The notes under the pieces are model-generated. The model worked only from the letters and a program-made list of their open reading frames with translations, did no database searches and was not told the origin of the DNA. The translations under genes were made by a program, and so were the position numbers. A DNA stretch of 48,044 nt from Caedimonas sp. (GTDB lineage Bacteria; Pseudomonadota; Alphaproteobacteria; Caedimonadales; Caedimonadaceae). This document shows, in pieces, positions 2,172 to 47,454 of the stretch (the first letter of the stretch is position 1; each line of letters starts with the position of its first letter). The stretch is taken from the NCBI GenBank assembly GCA_016794245.1, contig JAEUKR010000043.1, positions 1 to 48,044 of the forward strand, read 5' to 3'.

Positions 2172-3956
2172 TCAATGTGCTTTTGAAGGGGAGGGGCTGA
2201 GCTGTGCCCGACAAAGTTGGGCATAGCGGGAATGGGTTTGGATCAACTCGACGTGTCGGCCTGAAGCGACGACCTGTCCTCGGTCAATCACAAAGATGAT
2301 ATCGGCATCCATGACGGTTGCCAGCCGATGGGCAATAATAACGGTTGTACGATTGTTCATCAGTGTCTTTAACGCGAGCTGCACTTTTTGTTCCGAGGCG
2401 CTGTCCAACGCTGACGTTGGCTCGTCCAGCAAGATAATCGGGGCGTTCTTTAAGAGGGCGCGGGCAATCGCGATCCGCTGCCGTTGTCCTCCTGACAGGC
2501 GCACTCCCTGTTCACCCACCAGCGTATCATAGCTTTGCGGCAAATCGACGATGAATTCGTGGGCTGCCGCTGATTGGGCTGCCTTCAAAATATCCTCCTC
2601 AAGCGCTTGAGGATTGCCGAAAGCGATATTCGTCCGAACGGATTCATTAAAAAGGATGACGTCCTGACTGACGAGCGCAATATTATCTCGCAATGAATGA
2701 AGGGTGACTTGGCGAATATCTGTTCCGTCAATGGTGATGGATCCTTGACACACATCGTAAAAGCGTGGAATCAGATTAAGAATGGTCGATTTTCCAGATC
2801 CGCTCGCCCCTACCAGGGCAATGGTTTTGCCAGCGGGAATGTGCAGGTTGATGCGCGTCAGCACTTCTTCGTGACCATACGAAAAGCTGATATTTTCAAA
2901 AGAAATCGTTCCTTTTTGAACCTTCAACGTTTTTGCGTGAGGAACGTCTTCAATCTCTGGCTTGAGGTCCAGAAATCGAAAGACCCGCATAACCGCGGCA
3001 AGCTGATCCTGAAGATTGGCATTCAGATTGGCAAGCCTTTTAAGAGGCTCATATGTCATGAGAAGAGCCGTGATGAAAGAAAAGAAGGCGCCGGGATTCT
3101 GTTTTCCCGCGATGACCTGGGATCCTCCATAAACGACGACAACGGCGATAGCGACGCCACCCAAAAACTCCATTACGGGATGAGAAGCTGAACGCACGCG
3201 GGATGCCTTGAGAGAGCGCTTGAAAATGTCTTCAATCGTCTTGTTTGCTTCCTGTATCTGATAGCCTTCCATACAGTAGGATTTGATCAGGCGAATTCCC
3301 TGAAAAGCCTGAGTCAAAAGAGAAGTGAATATGGCGGTTCGTTCCTGGATGTGGGTTGAAACCTTGCGCATCCGCTTTCCGATCCGTACCACGGGAAGAA
3401 TAGCCACCGGCAGCACAAAAAACGAGATCGAAGCCAGAAACCAGTCTTGATAAAACATAAAAACCACAAAGGCTGACAACATAAAACCATCTTTGCCGAT
3501 GTTGATTAACGTTCCGGTCACGGCACTGTTTAATTTGTTGATATCGTTCGTAAAACGTGAGACCAATTCTCCGGTCGAGGTGTGATGAAAAAAAGCCAGA
3601 TCACAGGTAATCACATGGGCGAACATCTTCTTTTGAATGTCCGCGATGATACGCTGACCGACATAGGCAAGGGAAACGGACTCGCCATAGGTCGCCAGTC
3701 CCTTGATAAAGAAGACCAGAAAAATGGCAGCGGTTATCGGCATGAGCATGTCGGAACGTCGTGCCACAAAGATGTCATTGATGATAGGTTCAATCAGCTT
3801 GGCGGAAGCTACTGACATCAAGGCCACCAGACCCATGCAGATAAAGCCCCCGATCATGATACGGACATAAGGGCGTGCGAATTCGTCGACCAAACGCTTT
3901 ACAAGTTTGTGCGTGTTTTGATCCTGAAAAAGTTTCAGCGCTGATTTGCGTGTCAT
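2172..3956 (-). CDS. msbA: MsbA-like lipid A/phospholipid flippase, ABC exporter
   Basis: A 594-residue half-transporter: six predicted membrane helices in the first 320 residues, then an ABC ATPase. Walker A GASGSGKST lies near residue 381, the signature LSGGQRQR near 487 and Walker B ILLDEPTSALD near 507, followed by the switch His in IIAHRLAT. Placement directly before an LPLAT gene and waaA supports flipping of the lipid A-core across the inner membrane rather than drug export. The start is ATG 3954-3956; upstream is a 270-base divergent gap with the metallo-hydrolase gene that contains a family A repeat. First gene of the operon. Confidence 0.9.
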   Translation of the reverse strand: MTRKSALKLFQDQNTHKLVKRLVDEFARPYVRIMIGGFICMGLVALMSVASAKLIEPIINDIFVARRSDMLMPITAAIFLVFFIKGLATYGESVSLAYVGQRIIADIQKKMFAHVITCDLAFFHHTSTGELVSRFTNDINKLNSAVTGTLINIGKDGFMLSAFVVFMFYQDWFLASISFFVLPVAILPVVRIGKRMRKVSTHIQERTAIFTSLLTQAFQGIRLIKSYCMEGYQIQEANKTIEDIFKRSLKASRVRSASHPVMEFLGGVAIAVVVVYGGSQVIAGKQNPGAFFSFITALLMTYEPLKRLANLNANLQDQLAAVMRVFRFLDLKPEIEDVPHAKTLKVQKGTISFENISFSYGHEEVLTRINLHIPAGKTIALVGASGSGKSTILNLIPRFYDVCQGSITIDGTDIRQVTLHSLRDNIALVSQDVILFNESVRTNIAFGNPQALEEDILKAAQSAAAHEFIVDLPQSYDTLVGEQGVRLSGGQRQRIAIARALLKNAPIILLDEPTSALDSASEQKVQLALKTLMNNRTTVIIAHRLATVMDADIIFVIDRGQVVASGRHVELIQTHSRYAQLCRAQLSPSPSKAH

Positions 3957-4009
3957 CGTTTCATCATTTTTTTAGGTACTGAAATATATTACATAGATTG
4001 TCTTGGATA

Positions 4010-4136
4010 TCTACCCTTCGTCTTTCAAATTTTGAGAGTATTGAATGTCAGGATTCATTCTGCAAGAGGTCTAATGTTTACGCTGCTCAAGACTCACCAC
4101 GCGTTCGCCACCGCATATTTTGAAATCCTTTGGGGA
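4010..4136 (+). repeat. Family A palindromic repeat, near-full copy 1
   Basis: Begins ...CTACCCTTCGTCTTTCAAA and ends TTTTGAAATCCTTTGGGGAT, with the middle carrying ACGCTGCTCAAGACTCACC and CGCGTTCGCCACC, matching the other copies. It also carries TGCAAGAGGTCT (about 4061-4072), a word found again in the family B copy at about 35348. It sits between divergent msbA and the metallo-hydrolase gene. The remainder of this gap (3957-4009 and 4137-4227) shows nothing else I can name. Confidence 0.75.
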
Positions 4137-4227
4137 TCAATCACCGCTGGTATTGATTCGGTGACAGTTTAATTCTATTTTAACCATATAAGAAATAAGA
4201 ATCGCAACAGTTTATACAGGGTTTGGC

Positions 4228-5275: not shown

Positions 5276-6628
5276 ATGTTTTCAAATTTAGGCAATCGGC
5301 TGGGCGATATTTTTGATCGTTTGCGTAAGCGGGGCGCCCTTAATGAAGCGGATGTCGAGGCGGCGCTTCGCGAGGTGCGTGTGGCCTTGCTCGAGGCCGA
5401 TGTGGCATTACCCGTGGTGCGGGACTTCATTGCTCAGGTCAAGGAAAACGCCGTTGGTCAAGAGGTTCTGAAAAGCATTACGCCTGGCCAGATGGTCGTC
5501 AAGATTGTTTACGATCAACTGGTCGCGACTTTGGGAGCGCAAGGGGTCGACCTTAATCTTTCCGCGACGCCTCCTGTGGCGATGATGATCGTGGGTCTTC
5601 AAGGTTCGGGAAAAACCACCTCAGCCGCCAAGATCGCCCGCCTTCTTTCAATAAAAAAACGTAAAAAAGTGCTGATGGCCTCTGTGGACGTTTACCGTCC
5701 TGCTGCACGCGAGCAATTGAGAATCTTGGGGCGCCAAGCCGGCGTGGAGACGCTCGCGATCGTTGAAAATGAAAAGCCGCTGGATATCGCCAGACGGGCT
5801 TCCGAGAAAGCCCGTCTGGAAGGGTATGATGTGTTGTTGATCGATACGGCGGGGCGTCTTCATGTCGATGATGACCTGATGAAGGAGCTGGTGGAATTAC
5901 GCACCGTCCTGAACCCTGTTGAGACTCTTCTTGTTGCGGATGCCATGACGGGGCAGGATGCCGTGAACATTGCCAAAACCTTTCATGAGCGCGTTGCTTT
6001 GACAGGAATCGTGTTGACGCGCATTGATGGCGATGCGCGGGGCGGCGCTGCCTTATCGGTTCGTCATATTACTGGTTGTCCTATCAAATTTGTGGGCGTG
6101 GGCGAGCGGATCGAGCAAATAGAGGAATTCCATCCTGATCGCATCGCAAGCCGTATTCTTGACATGGGAGACGTGCTTAGCCTTGTTGAAAAAGCGGCTG
6201 AAACGATCAATCAGGAAGAAGCTGAAAAACTGGCCAAAAAGATGAGCAAAGGCCAATTCGATATGAATGATTTGGCCGATCAACTTCGTCAGATCTCCAG
6301 AATGGGAGGACTGGGGGGGTTGATGAGTATGCTGCCTGGCATTAACAAATTCAAAAATCAGATTCAACAAGCGGGGATTGATGAAAAAATGATCGCTCGT
6401 CAACTGGCGATGATTCATTCCATGACGCAGGTTGAACGCCGGAATCCCAGGATTTTGAATGGGTCACGGCGTAAAAGAATTGCAAAGGGATCAGGAACGA
6501 CTGTGACCGATGTGAATCGTCTCCTTCATCAGTTTCAGGGTATGCAGGATATGATGAAACGCATGAATAAATTGGGGGAGAAAGGGTTAAAGCGCCAAGG
6601 ACTGCGAGGTCTTTTGGGCAGGGGATGA
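5276..6628 (+). CDS. ffh: Signal recognition particle protein Ffh (SRP54)
   Basis: SRP GTPase that binds 4.5S RNA and signal sequences and delivers ribosomes to FtsY. Of its 450 residues, the N domain occupies the first 90, G1 GLQGSGKTT is at 107-114, DTAGR is near 190, and TRIDGDARGG (the G4 region) follows. The methionine-rich M domain has the RNA-binding block ERRNP...GSRRKRIAKGSG, then FQGMQDMMKRMNK. Start ATG 5276, with AAAAGG about ten bases upstream. The stop codon lies at the very edge of a truncated family A repeat. Upstream of rpsP as in many bacteria; the two are probably cotranscribed. Confidence 0.97.
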   Translation: MFSNLGNRLGDIFDRLRKRGALNEADVEAALREVRVALLEADVALPVVRDFIAQVKENAVGQEVLKSITPGQMVVKIVYDQLVATLGAQGVDLNLSATPPVAMMIVGLQGSGKTTSAAKIARLLSIKKRKKVLMASVDVYRPAAREQLRILGRQAGVETLAIVENEKPLDIARRASEKARLEGYDVLLIDTAGRLHVDDDLMKELVELRTVLNPVETLLVADAMTGQDAVNIAKTFHERVALTGIVLTRIDGDARGGAALSVRHITGCPIKFVGVGERIEQIEEFHPDRIASRILDMGDVLSLVEKAAETINQEEAEKLAKKMSKGQFDMNDLADQLRQISRMGGLGGLMSMLPGINKFKNQIQQAGIDEKMIARQLAMIHSMTQVERRNPRILNGSRRKRIAKGSGTTVTDVNRLLHQFQGMQDMMKRMNKLGEKGLKRQGLRGLLGRG

Positions 6629-6671
6629 ATCCCGACGCCCGACGCCTCCAGATTTTGAAAGGCGAAAGGTA
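6625..6671 (-). repeat. Family A repeat, left half in reverse orientation
   Basis: GAATCCCGACGCCCGACGCC then TCCAGATTTTGAAAGGCGAA and AGGTA match the reverse complement of the family A left half, as seen at 42061-42109. It begins inside the ffh stop codon and occupies most of the ffh-rpsP spacer, so it is probably present in their shared transcript. Confidence 0.75.
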
Positions 6672-6700
6672 AAATTGTTTGAACAATCAGGAGTAAAAAT

Positions 6701-12930: not shown

Positions 12931-13180
12931 TTTTTAAACTAAAGCCTTTTTGACGCTGTTTATTGTTTACGCTTTTTTTCTTGAAATTTCAATTTAAAGT
13001 CCGTCAAGATCCAGGGGTGTCATTTAATCAATAATTTTAAAGCGATCCTGTTTAAGAATGACAAAAAATACTTAATGAATCCTGAAATAATGATAAAGAT
13101 CATAGCTCATAATATTTTTACTTTTTGTCTTTTAGAATGTAAGAGCATTGCGGATGACGAATTTGCCCCTTTCTCCTTCC
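12931..13180. other. AT-rich intergenic stretch, no gene seen
   Basis: Divergent region between ppx and the acetoacetyl-CoA synthetase gene. Both strands carry frequent stops, and I recognise no RNA gene or terminator. The promoters for both flanking genes presumably lie here or in the repeats to its right. Confidence 0.4.
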
Positions 13181-13244
13181 TTATGAACACCACGCGGGGG
13201 CTATGGCGCGTCTGCTGCTCTGGATCCTGAAATCCTTTGGGTAT
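13181..13244 (+). repeat. Family A repeat, right half
   Basis: CACGCGGGGGCTATGGCGCG, then CTGGATCCTGAAATCCTTTG and GGTAT match the family A right half. It is followed only three bases later by a complete copy, so the two form a direct tandem. Confidence 0.6.
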
Positions 13245-13247
13245 GAT

Positions 13248-13373
13248 ATACCCTTCGCCTTTCAAAATCTGGGAGTGTTGGACATCGGAATTCGTCCTGC
13301 TCACGTACTGATTGTACGCTCCGCGGGACTCACCGCTCGTCTGCCTACCCAGATTTCGAAATCCTTTGGGTAT
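13248..13373 (+). repeat. Family A palindromic repeat, full copy 2
   Basis: One of the best copies: ATACCCTTCGCCTTTCAAAA at the left, GGAATTCGTCCTGCTCACGT in the middle, CGCGGGACTCACCGCTCGTC, then ATTTCGAAATCCTTTGGGTA at the right. The arms CTTTCAAAATCTGGG and CCCAGATTTCGAAATCC are complementary, so the element can fold into a long hairpin. It ends 36 bases before the start codon of the acetoacetyl-CoA synthetase gene and therefore must carry or adjoin its promoter. Confidence 0.85.
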
Positions 13374-13408: not shown

Positions 13409-15514
13409 ATGACACCGCTTTGGACACCCACTCTCCGTCAGATTGAATCCACAAATTTATGGCGTTTTTTAGAGACGGTAAACGCTCGATGTGGGACCCG
13501 TTTTACGTGTTATGACGAACTCTATGACTGGTCGATCCATAACATTCCCGACTTTTGGCGTACGTTTTGGGATTTTGCCGGTGTGATCTCTTCAAAACAG
13601 GGAGAAAGAGTTTTATCGGACACTCCTTTCATGGAAGGTAAGCATTTCTTTCCTGACGCGACGCTTAACTATGCGGAAAATCTTTTAAAAAACCGCCGGA
13701 GCATCGCCGCTCGCTCTCAGGACATCAGCCAACGAACAAGCCATGAATCCGAATCCCGCTCTCGCAAAGCGCCTGTGATGAACAGGGGCGAGGGGGAGAA
13801 TCATGAGAGCCAATCTTCTGACTTCCTGAAAAGCAAAGGCGAAGAGTATGAGTATGCTCAGGCGATTGTTTTTTGGGGAGAGGATCAGGTAAAGCGCCAT
13901 TTAGATTTTAACGAATTGACATCACAAGTTGCCGCTGTGCAATCCGCTTTAAAAGAATGGGGCGTGAGAAAAGGGGATTGTGTCGCGGGGTTCATGCCAA
14001 ATATGCCTGAAACGATCGTGGCAATGCTTGCGGCAGTCAGCCTTGGCGCTATTTGGACGTCCTGCTCTCCTGATTTTGGATTGCCGGGAATTCTGGATCG
14101 ATTCGGTCAAACCATGCCAAAAGTTTTATTTACTGCGGATGGTTATTATTATGCGGGGCGTTGGTATTCTTCTCTTGAGAAGAGTCGTGAGGCTAAAAAA
14201 CATCTTCCCTCTGTTTTAAAATTAATAGTTGTTCCTTATAAAGGTAAAGACGACTCTCAGCAGGATCTGGAGCCAGGAGAGATTTCTTACATGGACATGA
14301 TTCGCCAAAAGGATTTTGGCCGACCCGAATTCGTCCAGGTTCCTTTTAATCATCCTCTTTTTATCATGTATTCGTCAGGAACAACGGGCGTGCCCAAATG
14401 TATCGTTCATGGCCATGGAGGTACCCTCCTTCAGCATTTGAAAGAGCATCAGCTGCATTGCGACATTCATCCCGGTGATCGGGTCTTCTACTTCACAACC
14501 TGTGGCTGGATGATGTGGAATTGGCTTGCCTCGGCATTGGCATCGCAAGCAACCGTTATGTTATTTGATGGTTCTCCTTTTCATCCGCGGCCGGATTTCC
14601 TGTTTGAATACGCGCAGACAGAAAGGTTTACGCTCTTTGGAACCTCAGCCAGGTTTATTGAGAGCTTGCGCAAGCAAGAAATTGAACCAAAGAAAGTGTA
14701 TGATTTAACTTCCTTGCGTCTTATCACGTCTACGGGATCGCCTCTTTCGCCGGAAGGATTTGACTATATTTATCGCTCCGTCGCATCCCATGTTTGCTTG
14801 TCTTCGATTTCAGGAGGAACGGATATTATTTCCTGCTTCGCTCTTGGAAATCCGATAGGTTCTGTGTGGCGCGGCGAGCTTCAGGCGCGGGGACTTGGAC
14901 TCAAGGTCGAGGTTTTTAATGAAGAGGGTAGGTCCATCAAGGGGCAAAAGGGCGAGCTTGTGTGTACAGCGCCTTTTCCTTCGATGCCAATAGGATTCTG
15001 GAATGATCCCAAAGGTGAAAAATATCATGACGCTTATTTTTCACGTTTTCCCGATGTATGGTGCCACGGCGATTATGTGGAGTTAACGGAACATAATGGA
15101 CTTGTCATTTATGGCAGGTCCGACTCCACTTTAAATCCGAACGGTGTGCGTATTGGCACTGCGGAAATCTATCGTCAGGTGGAACATGTTGAGGAAGTTC
15201 TGGAATGCATCGCCATCGGTCAGGAGTTTCAGGGGGATAGCCGTATCATTCTCTTTGTTCATTTAAAGGAAGGGATAGAGCTTGAGCCTTGGCTGATCGA
15301 GAAAATCAAGCATCAGATACGCGAGAACACAACGCCGCGCCATGTGCCTGCGCTGATTTTGCAAGTCAGAGATATCCCCCGGACACTCAATGGCAAGCTT
15401 GTGGAACGGGCGGTGACGGAAGTTGTTCATGGAAGGCCAGTCAAAAATAAGGAAGCGATCGCCAATCCGGAAGCGTTGGAATTCTATAGAGATTTAAAAG
15501 AACTTAGGTATTAA
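13409..15514 (+). CDS. Acetoacetyl-CoA synthetase (acetoacetate-CoA ligase)
   Basis: ANL-superfamily acyl-CoA synthetase activating acetoacetate with ATP and CoA. The N-terminal block (MTPLWTP, FWDFAGVISS, FFPDATLNYAENLL) is specific to acetoacetyl-CoA synthetases. The AMP-binding loop YSSGTTGVPKCIVHG is at about 320-335, CGWMMWNW and STGSPLSPEGFDYIY follow, and the C-terminal GRSDSTLNPNGVRIG and PRTLNGKLVE motifs complete the enzyme. At 701 residues it is about 50 longer than usual. The excess is one low-complexity, Ser/Arg/Glu-rich insert at about residues 94-147, between NYAENLLK and AIVFWGED, which looks like an in-frame family A repeat. It may feed host ketone bodies or polyhydroxybutyrate breakdown products into acetyl-CoA. 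Confidence 0.93.
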   Translation: MTPLWTPTLRQIESTNLWRFLETVNARCGTRFTCYDELYDWSIHNIPDFWRTFWDFAGVISSKQGERVLSDTPFMEGKHFFPDATLNYAENLLKNRRSIAARSQDISQRTSHESESRSRKAPVMNRGEGENHESQSSDFLKSKGEEYEYAQAIVFWGEDQVKRHLDFNELTSQVAAVQSALKEWGVRKGDCVAGFMPNMPETIVAMLAAVSLGAIWTSCSPDFGLPGILDRFGQTMPKVLFTADGYYYAGRWYSSLEKSREAKKHLPSVLKLIVVPYKGKDDSQQDLEPGEISYMDMIRQKDFGRPEFVQVPFNHPLFIMYSSGTTGVPKCIVHGHGGTLLQHLKEHQLHCDIHPGDRVFYFTTCGWMMWNWLASALASQATVMLFDGSPFHPRPDFLFEYAQTERFTLFGTSARFIESLRKQEIEPKKVYDLTSLRLITSTGSPLSPEGFDYIYRSVASHVCLSSISGGTDIISCFALGNPIGSVWRGELQARGLGLKVEVFNEEGRSIKGQKGELVCTAPFPSMPIGFWNDPKGEKYHDAYFSRFPDVWCHGDYVELTEHNGLVIYGRSDSTLNPNGVRIGTAEIYRQVEHVEEVLECIAIGQEFQGDSRIILFVHLKEGIELEPWLIEKIKHQIRENTTPRHVPALILQVRDIPRTLNGKLVERAVTEVVHGRPVKNKEAIANPEALEFYRDLKELRY
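13690..13850 (-). repeat. Degenerate family A repeat inserted in frame in the acetoacetyl-CoA synthetase gene
   Basis: The extra segment ends CCTGAAAAGCAAAGGCGAAG then AGTAT, close to the reverse-orientation family A terminus TTTTGAAAGGCGAAGGGTAT. Upstream, AATCCCGCTCTCGCAAAGCG and GAGGGGGAGAATCATGAGAG align in order with CATCCCGCGCAGCG and GAGCAGGAGGAATCCCGA of the copy at 15713-15840. The translated end FLKSKGEEY parallels ILKGEGY read from the intergenic copies in the same frame. The left boundary is not clear. Confidence 0.5.
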
Positions 15515-15570
15515 CCAAGTCAGTTGTTTCGTCAGACCTGTTACCTGACCTGAATCTGGCGGGCGCTTTT

Positions 15571-15615
15571 ATACCCCTCTCCTCTCAAACTGTGGGGAGG
15601 TTGGGCTTTGGGTAT
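15571..15615 (+). repeat. Family A repeat, 45-bp mini form
   Basis: ATACCCCTCTCCTCTCAAAC at the left and GGCTTTGGGTAT at the right, with only TGTGGGGAGGTTG between. Both ends of the element are kept and the middle is lost. It lies immediately downstream (transcription sense) of tRNA-Gln. Confidence 0.65.
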
Positions 15616-15630
15616 GAATCACAGGGATTC

Positions 15631-15705: not shown

Positions 15706-15712
15706 ATAAGAT

Positions 15713-15840
15713 ATACCCTTCACCTTTCAAAATCCGGGGGCCGTTGGACAGTCGGGATTCCTCCTGCTCACGCATTTCACGTACGCTGCGCGGGATGCAC
15801 CGCTCGTCCGCCACCCTGGATTTCGAAATCCTTCGAGTAT
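15713..15840 (+). repeat. Family A palindromic repeat, full copy 3
   Basis: ATACCCTTCACCTTTCAAAA, TCGGGATTCCTCCTGCTCAC, TTCACGTACGCTGCGCGGGA, CACCGCTCGTCCGCCACCCT and GGATTTCGAAATCCTTCGAG plus TAT. 128 bp. It lies eight bases upstream of tRNA-Gln on the tRNA's strand. The nucleotide arms CAAAATCCGGGGG and CCACCCTGGATTTCG can pair. Confidence 0.85.
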
Positions 15841-17697: not shown

Positions 17698-17707
17698 GTA
17701 TGTGCAT

Positions 17708-17905
17708 ATATCCTTCGTCTTTCAAGTTATGGAGGACGTTGGATGGGTTGTGTTGTCGGGGGAAATTTTGCCCCCGATCACAGTCCTGCTTACGAAGCCT
17801 CTCACGGGTCCGGGTCCTTTGCGTCCCTGGTCACGTGTATGCTGCGTGAGAGGCTCTCACCGGTGTGACCTTCCTGTTCCTACCTCTCGAAATCTTTTCG
17901 GGATA
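17708..17905 (+). repeat. Family A repeat, copy 4, enlarged by about 70 bp
   Basis: The left end ATCCTTCGTCTTTCAAG, middle CAGTCCTGCTTACG and TGTATGCTGCGTGAGAGGCT, and right end TCTCGAAATCTTTTCGGGAT are recognisable. The element is 198 bp because extra sequence is present, including the hairpin TCGGGGG (17756-17762)/CCCCCGA (17771-17777) and a second GCCTCTCACG/CGTGAGAGGC pair. It lies between convergent tlc and coq9. The remaining 17906-18011 holds nothing recognised. Confidence 0.65.
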
Positions 17906-28339: not shown

Positions 28340-28393
28340 ACTTCATTTCATCAGCAGATATGGCGCGTGGATTTTTAGGCAAAGGCACGCGCC
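28340..28393 (+). repeat. Family B repeat, copy 1 with strong hairpin
   Basis: ACTTCATTTCATCAGCAGAT, ATGGCGCGTGGATTTTTAGG, CAAAGGCACGCGCC. GGCGCGTG (28362-28369) pairs perfectly with CACGCGCC (28386-28393). It lies between convergent nadK and rpoD and may serve as a transcription stop or 3'-end hairpin for both. A second short hairpin GAAGTC-AATA-GACTTC overlaps its left edge. Confidence 0.65.
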
Positions 28394-35172: not shown

Positions 35173-35182
35173 GCTTTCTGTT

Positions 35183-35432
35183 ATACCCTTCGCCTCTCAA
35201 AATCCGGGGCGGGGGGCGTTGGCCTTCTGGATTCATCCTGCTCACATCCTTCATGTATAGATAAGATATTATCTAACTATGCCCTAATCAATTGCTGCGG
35301 TTTCTCGTTCGCTTTTGCCTCAAAATCCCCACGCCATTTTTAGTCCATGCAAGAGGTCTTCACGTACTTCACGTACGCTGCGCGGAACTCACCGCTCGTC
35401 CGCGCCCCTCTATCTTGAAATCTTTTGGGTAT
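35183..35432 (+). repeat. Family A repeat, copy 5, split by a 98-bp insertion containing family B
   Basis: Left half ATACCCTTCGCCTCTCAAAA...CTGCTCACATCCTTCATGTA (35183-35257), then foreign sequence 35258-35355, then right half TTCACGTACGCTGCGCGGAA...CTTGAAATCTTTTGGGTAT. Without the insert the copy is about 150 bp, with a short G-rich duplication on the left. It lies between convergent hppA and the MFS gene. Confidence 0.75.
35310..35362 (-). repeat. Family B repeat, copy 2 (nested in family A)
   Basis: The reverse complement reads GACCTCTTGCATGGACTAAA, AATGGCGTGGGGATTTTGAG, GCAAAAGCG, matching copies 1 and 4. A perfect 7-bp inverted repeat TAGATAA-GATA-TTATCTA lies at the other end of the same insertion (about 35258-35275). 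Confidence 0.6.
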
Positions 35433-35440
35433 ATTGAGAG

Positions 35441-36793
35441 TCAAGAGGATTTTTGCGGAAAGGTCTCTTTGACCAGAAATGTAACAAAAGCTGCCATGAC
35501 AAGAGCAATTGGAATGATTCCAAGGGCGAAGCGGAAGTCTTCGAGATTGTAGTCAGGGGCGCCCGCAAGAAAAGTTCCGCCGCGCTCGGACCAATTCATC
35601 TGTAATAATTTCCCCAGAAGAGGTTGCATCAGATTACCGCTAAACATGCAGATCATATTGTGCATCCCTGAAGCGGTTGCCGCGCGATCACGGGAATTAA
35701 TATTCGCTACACCGGAAAATGCGAGAAATTGCCCCCCTGAGCAAGCGCCAGTTATCCCTAAAAGGAGACAACTCTGGAAGAAAGTGAGATTATTTTGATA
35801 GAAGGCGATCGTGATAAAAAAGGCTGTCAGAAGCGCGCTGATGATCAGCGCTTTTTTATGACTTTGAATCCAGGTGGAAAAAAATGGCCACAGAGGCGCT
35901 CCGATGGACATTCCCACATAAAAGGAAAAAACGCCTCCTGATGCTGTTGTGTAATCGACCTTGAATTGTTGTTCCATAAAGGGGGTCGCCCATAAGTCGG
36001 CAAAGCCGGAGAGAGGAACGTACATCAAAAAGCCGTAAAGGGCATAAATCCATGTCTGGGGATTTTTTAAAATCTCGATCATCGATAAGAGAACGTATGT
36101 AAGAGAAAAATAGTTTTTTTTCGTTCGCTCACCATGAGGGTCGTCATCACGAATCACTTTCCATGCGGCAATGCTCAAAATCGCACTGAATGCTGCCAGA
36201 ATAAGCATACAGTTTCGCCACGAAGTCAGCGTAAGCAGCGCGCCTAAAGGACTGCTGCCGCTGATGGCGCCGAAAGTTCCTACCATGAGCGTAAGACCCA
36301 CGAAGAGTCCCAGCCTTTCCGTTCCGAACCATGTCGATACGATTCGAACGGTGGTCAGAAAGCCAAAGGCTGAGCCAATGCCCATCAGAATCCTTCCTGT
36401 GGCGAGTACATAAATGTTGCTCCCCATTCCAAAGATAACGCACCCAAAAAAGCAGAGAAGGCAAGCGGCGACAAGAGGACGGCGGGGGCCAATGTTATCC
36501 AGCAAAAGACCTGCGGGAATCTGCATCAATGAATATCCCCAGTAATAAAACGAAACCATGACGCCAAGAGCGCAGGCCTGAACATCAAAAGCTGCCATCA
36601 GTTGATGCGTCATCACGTTTGGAGAAACCCGGATAAGAAATTGAAATCCATAGAAGGTTGCGGCGCATAACCACATCAAAAATCCCTGATAGGGTCGATT
36701 GAGTGTATTCATTGTTCCCGTAAGTCCATCTGTTGTGTTGGTTTCGTTATCGCCAGTGCGCTTAAAAACTTTCATACCTTCTTCGTCTTTCAT
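35441..36793 (-). CDS. MFS transporter, substrate unknown
   Basis: A 12-helix major facilitator. The A-motif-like GLLLDNIGPRRPLVAAC lies between helices 2 and 3; GRILMGIGSAFGF and SGMHNMICMFSGNLMQPLLG are other conserved parts. It resembles the uncharacterised MFS group common in intracellular gammaproteobacteria and Holosporales. The start is uncertain: the frame begins at ATG 36793, but its first six codons (MKDEEG) are the left end of a family A repeat. ATG 36775 (MKVFKR) and ATG 36712 (MNTLNRPYQGF) are alternatives; all helices are retained in each case. Confidence 0.85.
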   Translation of the reverse strand: MKDEEGMKVFKRTGDNETNTTDGLTGTMNTLNRPYQGFLMWLCAATFYGFQFLIRVSPNVMTHQLMAAFDVQACALGVMVSFYYWGYSLMQIPAGLLLDNIGPRRPLVAACLLCFFGCVIFGMGSNIYVLATGRILMGIGSAFGFLTTVRIVSTWFGTERLGLFVGLTLMVGTFGAISGSSPLGALLTLTSWRNCMLILAAFSAILSIAAWKVIRDDDPHGERTKKNYFSLTYVLLSMIEILKNPQTWIYALYGFLMYVPLSGFADLWATPFMEQQFKVDYTTASGGVFSFYVGMSIGAPLWPFFSTWIQSHKKALIISALLTAFFITIAFYQNNLTFFQSCLLLGITGACSGGQFLAFSGVANINSRDRAATASGMHNMICMFSGNLMQPLLGKLLQMNWSERGGTFLAGAPDYNLEDFRFALGIIPIALVMAAFVTFLVKETFPQKSS

Positions 36794-36899
36794 CTGTGAG
36801 CGCCTTGAACATCCAGATTCATCTCGTTCATCTCATCCTTTTATGGACAACGCGCCACGTCGTCTGCCTCTCCCCGCATTCTGAAATTTTTTGGGGTAT
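36774..36899 (+). repeat. Family A palindromic repeat, near-full copy 6
   Basis: ATACCTTCTTCGTCTTTCAT at the left, CCAGATTCATCTCGTTCATC in the middle, GCGCCACGTCGTCTGCC, and TTCTGAAATTTTTTGGGGTA at the right. It overlaps the possible first codons of the MFS gene. Confidence 0.7.
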
Positions 36900-41986: not shown

Positions 41987-42109
41987 ATACCCAAAGGATT
42001 TCGACGTCCAGAGTGACAGACGAGCGATGAGCCCTGCGCAGCGTATAAGTATGTAAGCAGGCTGAATCCCGATCTTCAACACCTCCAGATTTTGAAAGGC
42101 GAAAAGTAC
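41987..42109 (-). repeat. Family A palindromic repeat, full copy 7
   Basis: On the forward strand it starts ATACCCAAAGGATTTCGACG, continues GACGAGCGATGAGCCCTGCG and GTAAGCAGGCTGAATCCCGA, and ends CCAGATTTTGAAAGGCGAAA plus AGTACAT. It lies between two reverse-strand genes (M23 peptidase upstream, symporter downstream). The A/T-rich flank with a G10-like run at about 41946-41955 shows nothing else. Confidence 0.8.
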
Positions 42110-42160
42110 ATGAATGCGGCATCGGTCTCGCCAGCTCATCTACCATACCAATCAAATCCG

Positions 42161-43745: not shown

Positions 43746-43810
43746 ATACTCAAAGGATTTCAAAATCCGGGGTGACGGACGCGCGGTGAGTCCTGCGCCG
43801 CGTACGTAAG
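43746..43810 (-). repeat. Family A repeat, right half in reverse orientation
   Basis: ATACTCAAAGGATTTCAAAA, TCCGGGGTGACGGACGCGCG, GTGAGTCCTGCGCCGCGTAC then GTAAG, after which family B starts. The left half is missing, replaced by the family B unit. It forms a tail-to-tail pair with the degenerate end at 43705-43745. Confidence 0.7.
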
Positions 43811-43859
43811 ACTTGTTTCATCACTAGATATCGCGCCTGAGTTTTTAGTTTACAGCGCA
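43809..43859 (+). repeat. Family B repeat, copy 3 (divergent)
   Basis: ACTTGTTTCATCACTAGATA, TCGCGCCTGAGTTTTTAGTT, TACAGCGC. It aligns with copy 1 over its whole length with about one difference in four. It directly abuts a truncated family A copy. The gap from here to chpT is AT-rich without other features. Confidence 0.5.
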
Positions 43860-44598: not shown

Positions 44599-44650
44599 CC
44601 TTTTGCCTCAAAATCCTCACGCCATATCTGGTTAGGAAAGAAGTTTGATC
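44599..44650 (-). repeat. Family B repeat, copy 4
   Basis: The reverse complement reads AAACTTCTTTCCTAACCAGA, TATGGCGTGAGGATTTTGAG, GCAAAAGGATGG, closely matching copy 1. It lies between convergent chpT and dprA. Confidence 0.65.
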
Positions 44651-47180: not shown

Positions 47181-47334
47181 GACTCCATTGGTTAAGCGGA
47201 ATGATGAGATTTTGCAAGTGCTGAATGATGCTTGGCAGTAAGACTTTAGTTTGTTTGAGCAAATCTTGAGCAAATATGGTTGACATTCACCCTGAAATAC
47301 TGATAGATCCCGATTAGTTGGACTATACCTTTCG

Positions 47335-47454
47335 CGTTTCAAGATATAAAGGCGTTGGCCTTCGGGTTTCCTGTCTGTTCGCGTGCTCGTTATGCAGGTG
47401 GCATGGGATGGCCGGTCGTTCGCCTCCCTGGTATTTTGAAATACTTTAAGGTAT
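47335..47454 (+). repeat. Family A palindromic repeat, divergent full copy 8
   Basis: Left end ATACCTTTCGCGTTTCAAGA, GGCGTTGGCCTTCGGGTTTC in the middle, GTCGTTCGCCTCCCTGGTAT and TTTGAAATACTTTAAGGTAT at the right. The ends are symmetrical (ATACCTT...AAGGTAT). It ends 22 bases before tRNA-Tyr. The remaining 47181-47334 contains a direct repeat TTGAGCAAAT x2 and TTGACATTCACCCTG, a possible -35 region. Confidence 0.65.

Follow-up and report, generated by a model that had tools for sequence, protein, structure and literature searches.

A probable in-frame copy of a palindromic repeat in an acetoacetyl-CoA synthetase gene, and further copies in other genes of a reduced alphaproteobacterial genome

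The acetoacetyl-CoA synthetase (AACS) encoded in the window (by which we mean the whole stretch of DNA analysed, 48,044 nucleotides) contains a hydrophilic segment inserted between two conserved blocks. The question that this locus raises is whether the segment derives from family A, a palindromic repeat with several copies nearby, and whether such an element could have entered a conserved enzyme in frame, as palindromic elements are known to do in Rickettsia.

The acetoacetyl-CoA synthetase gene and its insert

The gene, its insert and the part of the insert that aligns with family A are located as follows:

13409..15514, + strand: AACS gene, 701 amino acid residues, host of the putative family A insertion, with Pfam and PDB matches
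13700..13852, + strand: putative family A insertion, in frame in AACS, residues 98-148, 51 residues, SIAARSQDISQRTSHESESRSRKAPVMNRGEGENHESQSSDFLKSKGEEYE
13760..13839, + strand: section of the insert aligned to positions 46-122 of the 128 of the family A profile, in the codon phase of all other in-gene copies

The protein is composed of the Pfam domains ACAS_N, AMP-binding and AMP-binding_C, its best PDB match is 4wd1 (E 2e-162), and its residues 151-699 are 64% identical to the nearest relative. The first-pass annotation had described about 50 extra hydrophilic residues between conserved blocks and had proposed an alignment with relatives as a check on their uniqueness; the alignment confirmed both points, since the insert amounts to 51 residues and residues ~98-148 are missing from the AACS of all 28 aligned relatives (28/28). 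In 4wd1, 11 residues are found where AACS has 59 between the aligned blocks. Mapping on a structural model, also proposed, agreed with this: in an AF2 model of AACS (48 sequences, mean pLDDT 84.9), residues 99-148 are the sole long stretch mostly below pLDDT 50, the flanks being above 90, and the modelled insert is placed between the N-terminal helix 88-92 and the first core strand 151-157.

The genome is a reduced one, of 1.33 Mb, available as a draft assembly (96% complete; the stretches scanned here amount to 1.09 Mb of the 1.33 Mb), and both its reduction and its draft state would fit a pseudogene or an assembly chimera, in which the insert is merely awaiting purge. We regard this as hardly credible, since the AACS open reading frame (ORF) is unbroken across its 701 residues, its product is about 60% identical to other AACS and retains the invariant columns, while MurG, FolC and UbiA, which likewise carry family A, are single and open, and family A itself is present on many contigs.

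Family A and the likeness of the insert to it

Family A is an imperfect palindrome of ~128 nt with terminal inverted repeats, which starts with TATACCC and ends with GGGTATA, a T preceding the modelled start in 43 of 53 copies; the hairpin of a young copy has a folding energy of -23.6 kcal/mol (z -4.2). A BLAST search of the genome with the copy at 13246-13373 gave 47 matches, the query among them, some at 98% identity. With a covariance model, at least 146 matches were obtained in this genome, spread over many contigs, and a sequence profile gave 178 pieces of at least 30 bits in the 1.09 Mb. No Rfam family matches family A, and no match to it was found among plasmid records. In the window, the following copies were identified in addition to the AACS insert:

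13246..13373, - strand: young copy of full length (128 nt) that lies upstream of AACS and shares up to 98% identity with copies at other places, imperfect hairpin (z -4.2)
13116..13244, - strand: older copy in tandem, directly adjoining the 13246..13373 copy (50.0 bits with the profile, 54.5 bits with the covariance model)
15711..15840, - strand: full-length intergenic copy (106.3 bits)
41987..42111, + strand: full-length intergenic copy (96.1 bits)
4009..4137, - strand: intergenic copy (85.8 bits)
43746..43818, + strand: partial copy, positions 1-66 (52.0 bits)
35352..35432, - strand: 5' half of a copy, parted from the other half by family B-like sequence at 35291-35345 (51.9 bits)
35181..35261, - strand: 3' portion of a copy (48.3 bits)
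47323..47454, - strand: copy upstream of an RlmB-like gene (48.4 bits), with the strand and codon phase (0) of the in-gene copies
36774..36899, - strand: degenerate copy (34.9 bits), its tail overlapping the ATG of ORF 35441-36793 (MKDEEGMK) of the ORF list
6596..6674, + strand: partial copy overlapping the 3' end of ORF 5276-6628 (37.5 bits)
17706..17904, - strand: degenerate intergenic copy (31.5 bits)
15569..15621, - strand: partial copy (17.0 bits)

The copy at 47323..47454 probably precedes the true start of the RlmB-like gene. As for ORF 35441-36793, its initiation codon may come from family A itself, given the overlap with the tail of the degenerate copy.

DNA profiles of family A were built from 28, 156 or 182 copies, the row of the AACS insert being left out. 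With the 28-copy profile the insert scored 8.4 bits, for an E of 0.06 over the 48 kb of the window (the reversed window gave at most 3.7), with the 156-copy profile 15.0 bits (best of 0.82 Mb of reversed sequence 6.6) and with the 182-copy profile 14.3 bits (best of 1.09 Mb of reversed sequence 5.9). None of 10,000 shuffles of the insert (5,000 dinucleotide and 5,000 codon shuffles) reached 14.3 bits, the best having 8.2, so that the score is far beyond the random range (14.3-15.0 against 5.9-6.6 bits for reversed sequence). The ordered match and the strand that had been described from the letters alone were recovered as a collinear alignment over model positions 46-122 of 128, and so was the reading frame, FLKSKGEEY resembling ILKGEGY/SLKDEGY; the insert peptides include FLKSKGEEYEYAQ in AACS and HSLKDEGYT in UbiA. 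A covariance model of 28 copies, tried in place of the sequence profile, scored only the terminal 23 nt of the insert, at 7.8 bits, the broader sequence profile being more sensitive. Because of the results with the DNA profiles, reversed sequence and shuffles, we consider that the AACS insert is, as judged from its sequence, a degenerate copy of family A, aligned over ~80 nt and 7 codons longer than the consensus.

A test at the peptide level discriminates less well: with a small peptide profile, 57 shuffles out of 10,000, all of the same composition, scored as high as the insert (p about 0.006). In the first third of the insert (13703-13760) the likeness to family A is seen by eye only, again in the peptide (I, QD, RTS, ES), and has no significance of its own. 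A hydrophilic loop specific to the lineage and unrelated to family A, resembling it by chance or by convergent low complexity, would account for the modest score, for this p value and for an alignment restricted to the last two thirds. We find it very unlikely, since the DNA score is more than twice the best of 1.09 Mb of reversed sequence and is reached by no shuffle, it climbed with the broader profile, and strand, order and codon phase match those of nine other in-gene copies. The reading that we prefer, with a probability of roughly 0.9, is that the insert would be an old family A copy, integrated in the strand and frame that read as a hydrophilic, disorder-prone peptide.

Family A has the core CTCACGTAC..GTACGCTGCG in common with another palindromic repeat, family B, which is ~146 nt long and has the ends TAGACCTCTTGCA...TGCAAGAGGTCTA. 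Family B matches many further loci besides three in the window:

35291-35345: family B match
44600-44632: family B match
28346-28383: family B match

Among 139 family B pieces of at least 15 bits, no convincing case inside a gene was found. Family B sequence was observed within the loop of family A copies at L168:2384-2654, L209 near 3691-3734 and 35181-35432 of the window, apparently by nested insertion, which points to mobility.

Beyond this genome, the exact tail pattern of family A occurs in only two of 385 genomes of the class, and family A was not found in the relatives and the class sample, barring a diverged relative in genome G007 and two short matches in genome G022. The relative in G007 (same order, other family) is a cleaner palindrome (L223, L225-L227, L277-L294); in the 18 regions examined its copies look intergenic and no convincing in-gene copy was found. 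The FolC of G007 (L258) has a reading frame with one TAA stop inside the match. In G022, of the same class, the two matches to the family A tail are exact, and a 65-nt element contains one of these; three viral contigs (L240-L242) also have an exact match to the tail pattern. REP/BIME repeats are usually tied to Y1 (RAYT) transposases. Candidate movers of family A were sought in its own genome, where no DDE_3 match (IS630-type transposase, the partner sought for an RUP-like MITE) and no Y1_Tnp match (RAYT) was obtained; an IS630 or RAYT mover is disfavoured by these missing matches, the absence being no proof in a genome that is 96% complete.

Family A inside other genes and the choice of one frame

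Including AACS, the unrelated genes that appear to contain family A in frame number at least six and probably ten, and the element adds ~20-53 residues to their products. A scan of long ORFs gave in-gene scores of 82 bits in YgfZ, 71 in UbiA, 38 in FolC, 37 in MurG and 12 in TilS, and further scores of 54 bits in an APC amino-acid permease, 34 in a DUF2155 protein and 20 in a UDG4-like glycosylase; in an Rsm22-like protein (named from its sequence) the copy is long and rearranged, with the in-gene phase in its second half only. The permease, UDG4-like, DUF2155 and Rsm22-like copies are probably in-gene insertions too, located at or past domain edges. When MurG, FolC, UbiA and YgfZ were aligned with their relatives, gaps were observed at the family A sites, and the gap in UbiA is of exactly 44 codons, the length of its copy. 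In a translated search with YgfZ, the insert peptide alone matched intergenic family A copies (65-66% identity) and the UbiA gene. Since MurG, FolC and UbiA have a single match each in their own genome, with open frames, normally important genes bear the insert in their sole copy, and from these intact, single-copy genes we infer that insert-bearing proteins would be translated and working. The Rickettsia-like insertion in frame that had been suggested from AACS is supported by nine other genes, far more strongly than by AACS alone.

Several other loci carry sequence of this kind. Another hydrophilic insert of ~48 residues, likewise unique, is present in YgfZ (L167:14695-14844, - strand); it is similar to family A, being equalled by 3 codon shuffles out of 5,000, and is probably a strongly decayed copy. 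In the TilS insert (L163:9601-9651, - strand) the middle of the copy was lost in frame (IPKGFQNVG-THNLKDEGK), and the C-terminus of a NuoL-like protein is made up of a copy whose end is in the in-gene frame (L171:8381-8562, + strand). Family A is also found at the N-termini of RlmB, RsmI and DnaE. An opposite-strand copy is located ahead of the lipobox of a TPR lipoprotein (L164:7558-7684, - strand), and may have contributed its hydrophobic reading to the signal peptide. The opposite-strand in-gene candidates (L164, L178, L179, L165, L208, L192 and L209) looked like N- or C-terminal extensions of ORFs, spurious ORFs or weak chance hits, none of them resembling an interior insertion, and LPKGFQTAE in an AccD-like ORF (3.6 bits), like other low-scoring in-gene hits, was judged to be ordinary protein sequence.

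All ten interior copies are on one strand and in one reading frame (IPKGFQ-V-RTSGES---SLKDEGY), for which the probability would be 1e-7 if the six frames were chosen uniformly. Random insertion followed by a filter of stop codons, with no further frame preference, might explain this, and the +1 frame is indeed open in the consensus of the older subfamily (IPKGFQDVGRRTSGESRAAYNQYVSRTNPEGQHPHSLKDEGY). Among 57 full copies, however, 15 have +1 open, as against 45 for -3 and 36 for -2, as counted on present-day copies, many of which are decayed, and no convincing interior copy uses -3 or -2. Open +1 readings are hydrophilic (mean GRAVY -1.23), open -3 readings are hydrophobic (+0.42), -3/-2 peptides as a whole being hydrophobic or near neutral, and values of -0.99 to -1.86 were obtained for the in-gene inserts. 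Stop codons alone are thus insufficient, because the opposite-strand frames are open more often yet encode hydrophobic peptides; we rejected them as the complete cause and consider their sole action, a rival to a hydropathy filter and not to insertion as such, unlikely. Survival of an insertion would rather depend on the added peptide being soluble and disorder-prone.

Under our preferred reading of the AACS insert as an old family A copy, a palindromic mobile element of ~128 nt would have integrated into AACS in the sole strand and frame with a hydrophilic reading. A trans-acting factor that targets TA-rich sites would have moved family A (ends TATACCC...GGGTATA), and insertions in other frames or orientations would have been lost, owing either to stop codons or to hydrophobic peptides that impair folding; these two steps are the weakest of the scheme. 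A consensus copy adds ~126 nt, that is 42 codons, and so would leave the frame unshifted. The insertion would have occurred in a surface loop, the enzyme keeping its function, the insert peptide would be produced and retained as a tolerated passenger, and the copy would then have drifted, selected only to stay open.

An inserted element could also be removed after transcription or translation, in the manner of an intron or an intein, leaving a protein without the insert; young copies do fold as hairpins, and some in-gene copies have a modest folding excess (z about -2). This alternative seems to us extremely unlikely. The in-gene copies all keep one open phase and are hydrophilic, neither of which removal needs, the folding excess is weak or nil (z -2.2 in AACS, -2.1 in YgfZ and +0.95 in UbiA), and a catalytic core cannot fit in ~126 nt. 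Moreover, a Rickettsia gmk bearing a palindromic element is translated and active (PMC2229807).

The older subfamily consensus contrasts with the youngest family A copies, most of which have a stop or a frameshift in +1, and the subfamily active at present may therefore no longer be able to insert in frame. A tentative and rather doubtful extension is that family A was once a selfish element adapted to protein interiors, its ancestral +1 frame being held stop-free, hydrophilic and disorder-prone over 42 codons by selection on the element itself, which would widen the usable sites, and that younger subfamilies lost +1 and are now intergenic only. If so, the related families (family B and the G007 version) would be natural non-coding controls for a coding family A.

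Comparison with known palindromic elements

In-frame palindromic elements were reviewed as frequent in conserved proteins of Rickettsia (and Wolbachia), and the same route of protein evolution was considered conceivable in other prokaryotes (PMC10969869). Family A is apparently an independent case, with ten host genes, probably in another order of reduced alphaproteobacteria, in which coding and non-coding subfamilies coexist and the frame preference goes beyond stop codons. The number of hosts, the subfamilies side by side and this preference make the survival of selfish DNA in essential proteins directly testable within one genome.

The closest known systems are the Rickettsia palindromic elements RPE-1, -2, -3 and others (Ogata et al., 2000, 2002). 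As far as the descriptions in PMC10969869, PMC2229807 and PMC3767692 go, these are likewise imperfect palindromes of 105-146 bp with terminal inverted repeats, in small alphaproteobacterial genomes and without an identified transposase, with intergenic copies as well as in-frame copies in conserved genes, where the insert is hydrophilic; the RPE inserts are also described as exposed, as that of AACS may be. By description, family A is set apart from them by its ends (TATACCC/GGGTATA) and its peptide (IPKGF...SLKDEGY). The host order counts 10 genomes in our collection, too few for the Rickettsiales, and we therefore infer an alphaproteobacterial order other than that of the RPE hosts, perhaps one of symbionts resembling Holosporales. 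Family A works like RPE and the Wolbachia palindromic elements (WPE; Ogata et al., 2005), but, by lineage, it is unlikely to belong to the RPE family proper; the different order and the lack of any shared family found, in a comparison by description, make it likely that it is independent of the Rickettsia families. WPE, as they are cited in PMC3767692 and PMC2229807, are likewise protein-coding palindromic repeats outside Rickettsia proper, to which family A is likened by description; unlike the presumed order of the family A host, theirs is Rickettsiales.

ERIC, NEMIS (Correia) and other bacterial MITEs with ORFs share with family A the small size, non-autonomy, TA ends and occasional in-frame fusions (PMC2229807), but they are mostly intergenic, whereas family A is found inside many conserved enzymes with a fixed strand and frame. 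REP/BIME are also multi-copy palindromic repeats and differ from family A in being 20-40 bp long and extragenic (PMC3733652). In the literature we found no prior report of in-frame palindromic elements in this lineage, and an open review of Holosporales does not mention palindromic repeats.
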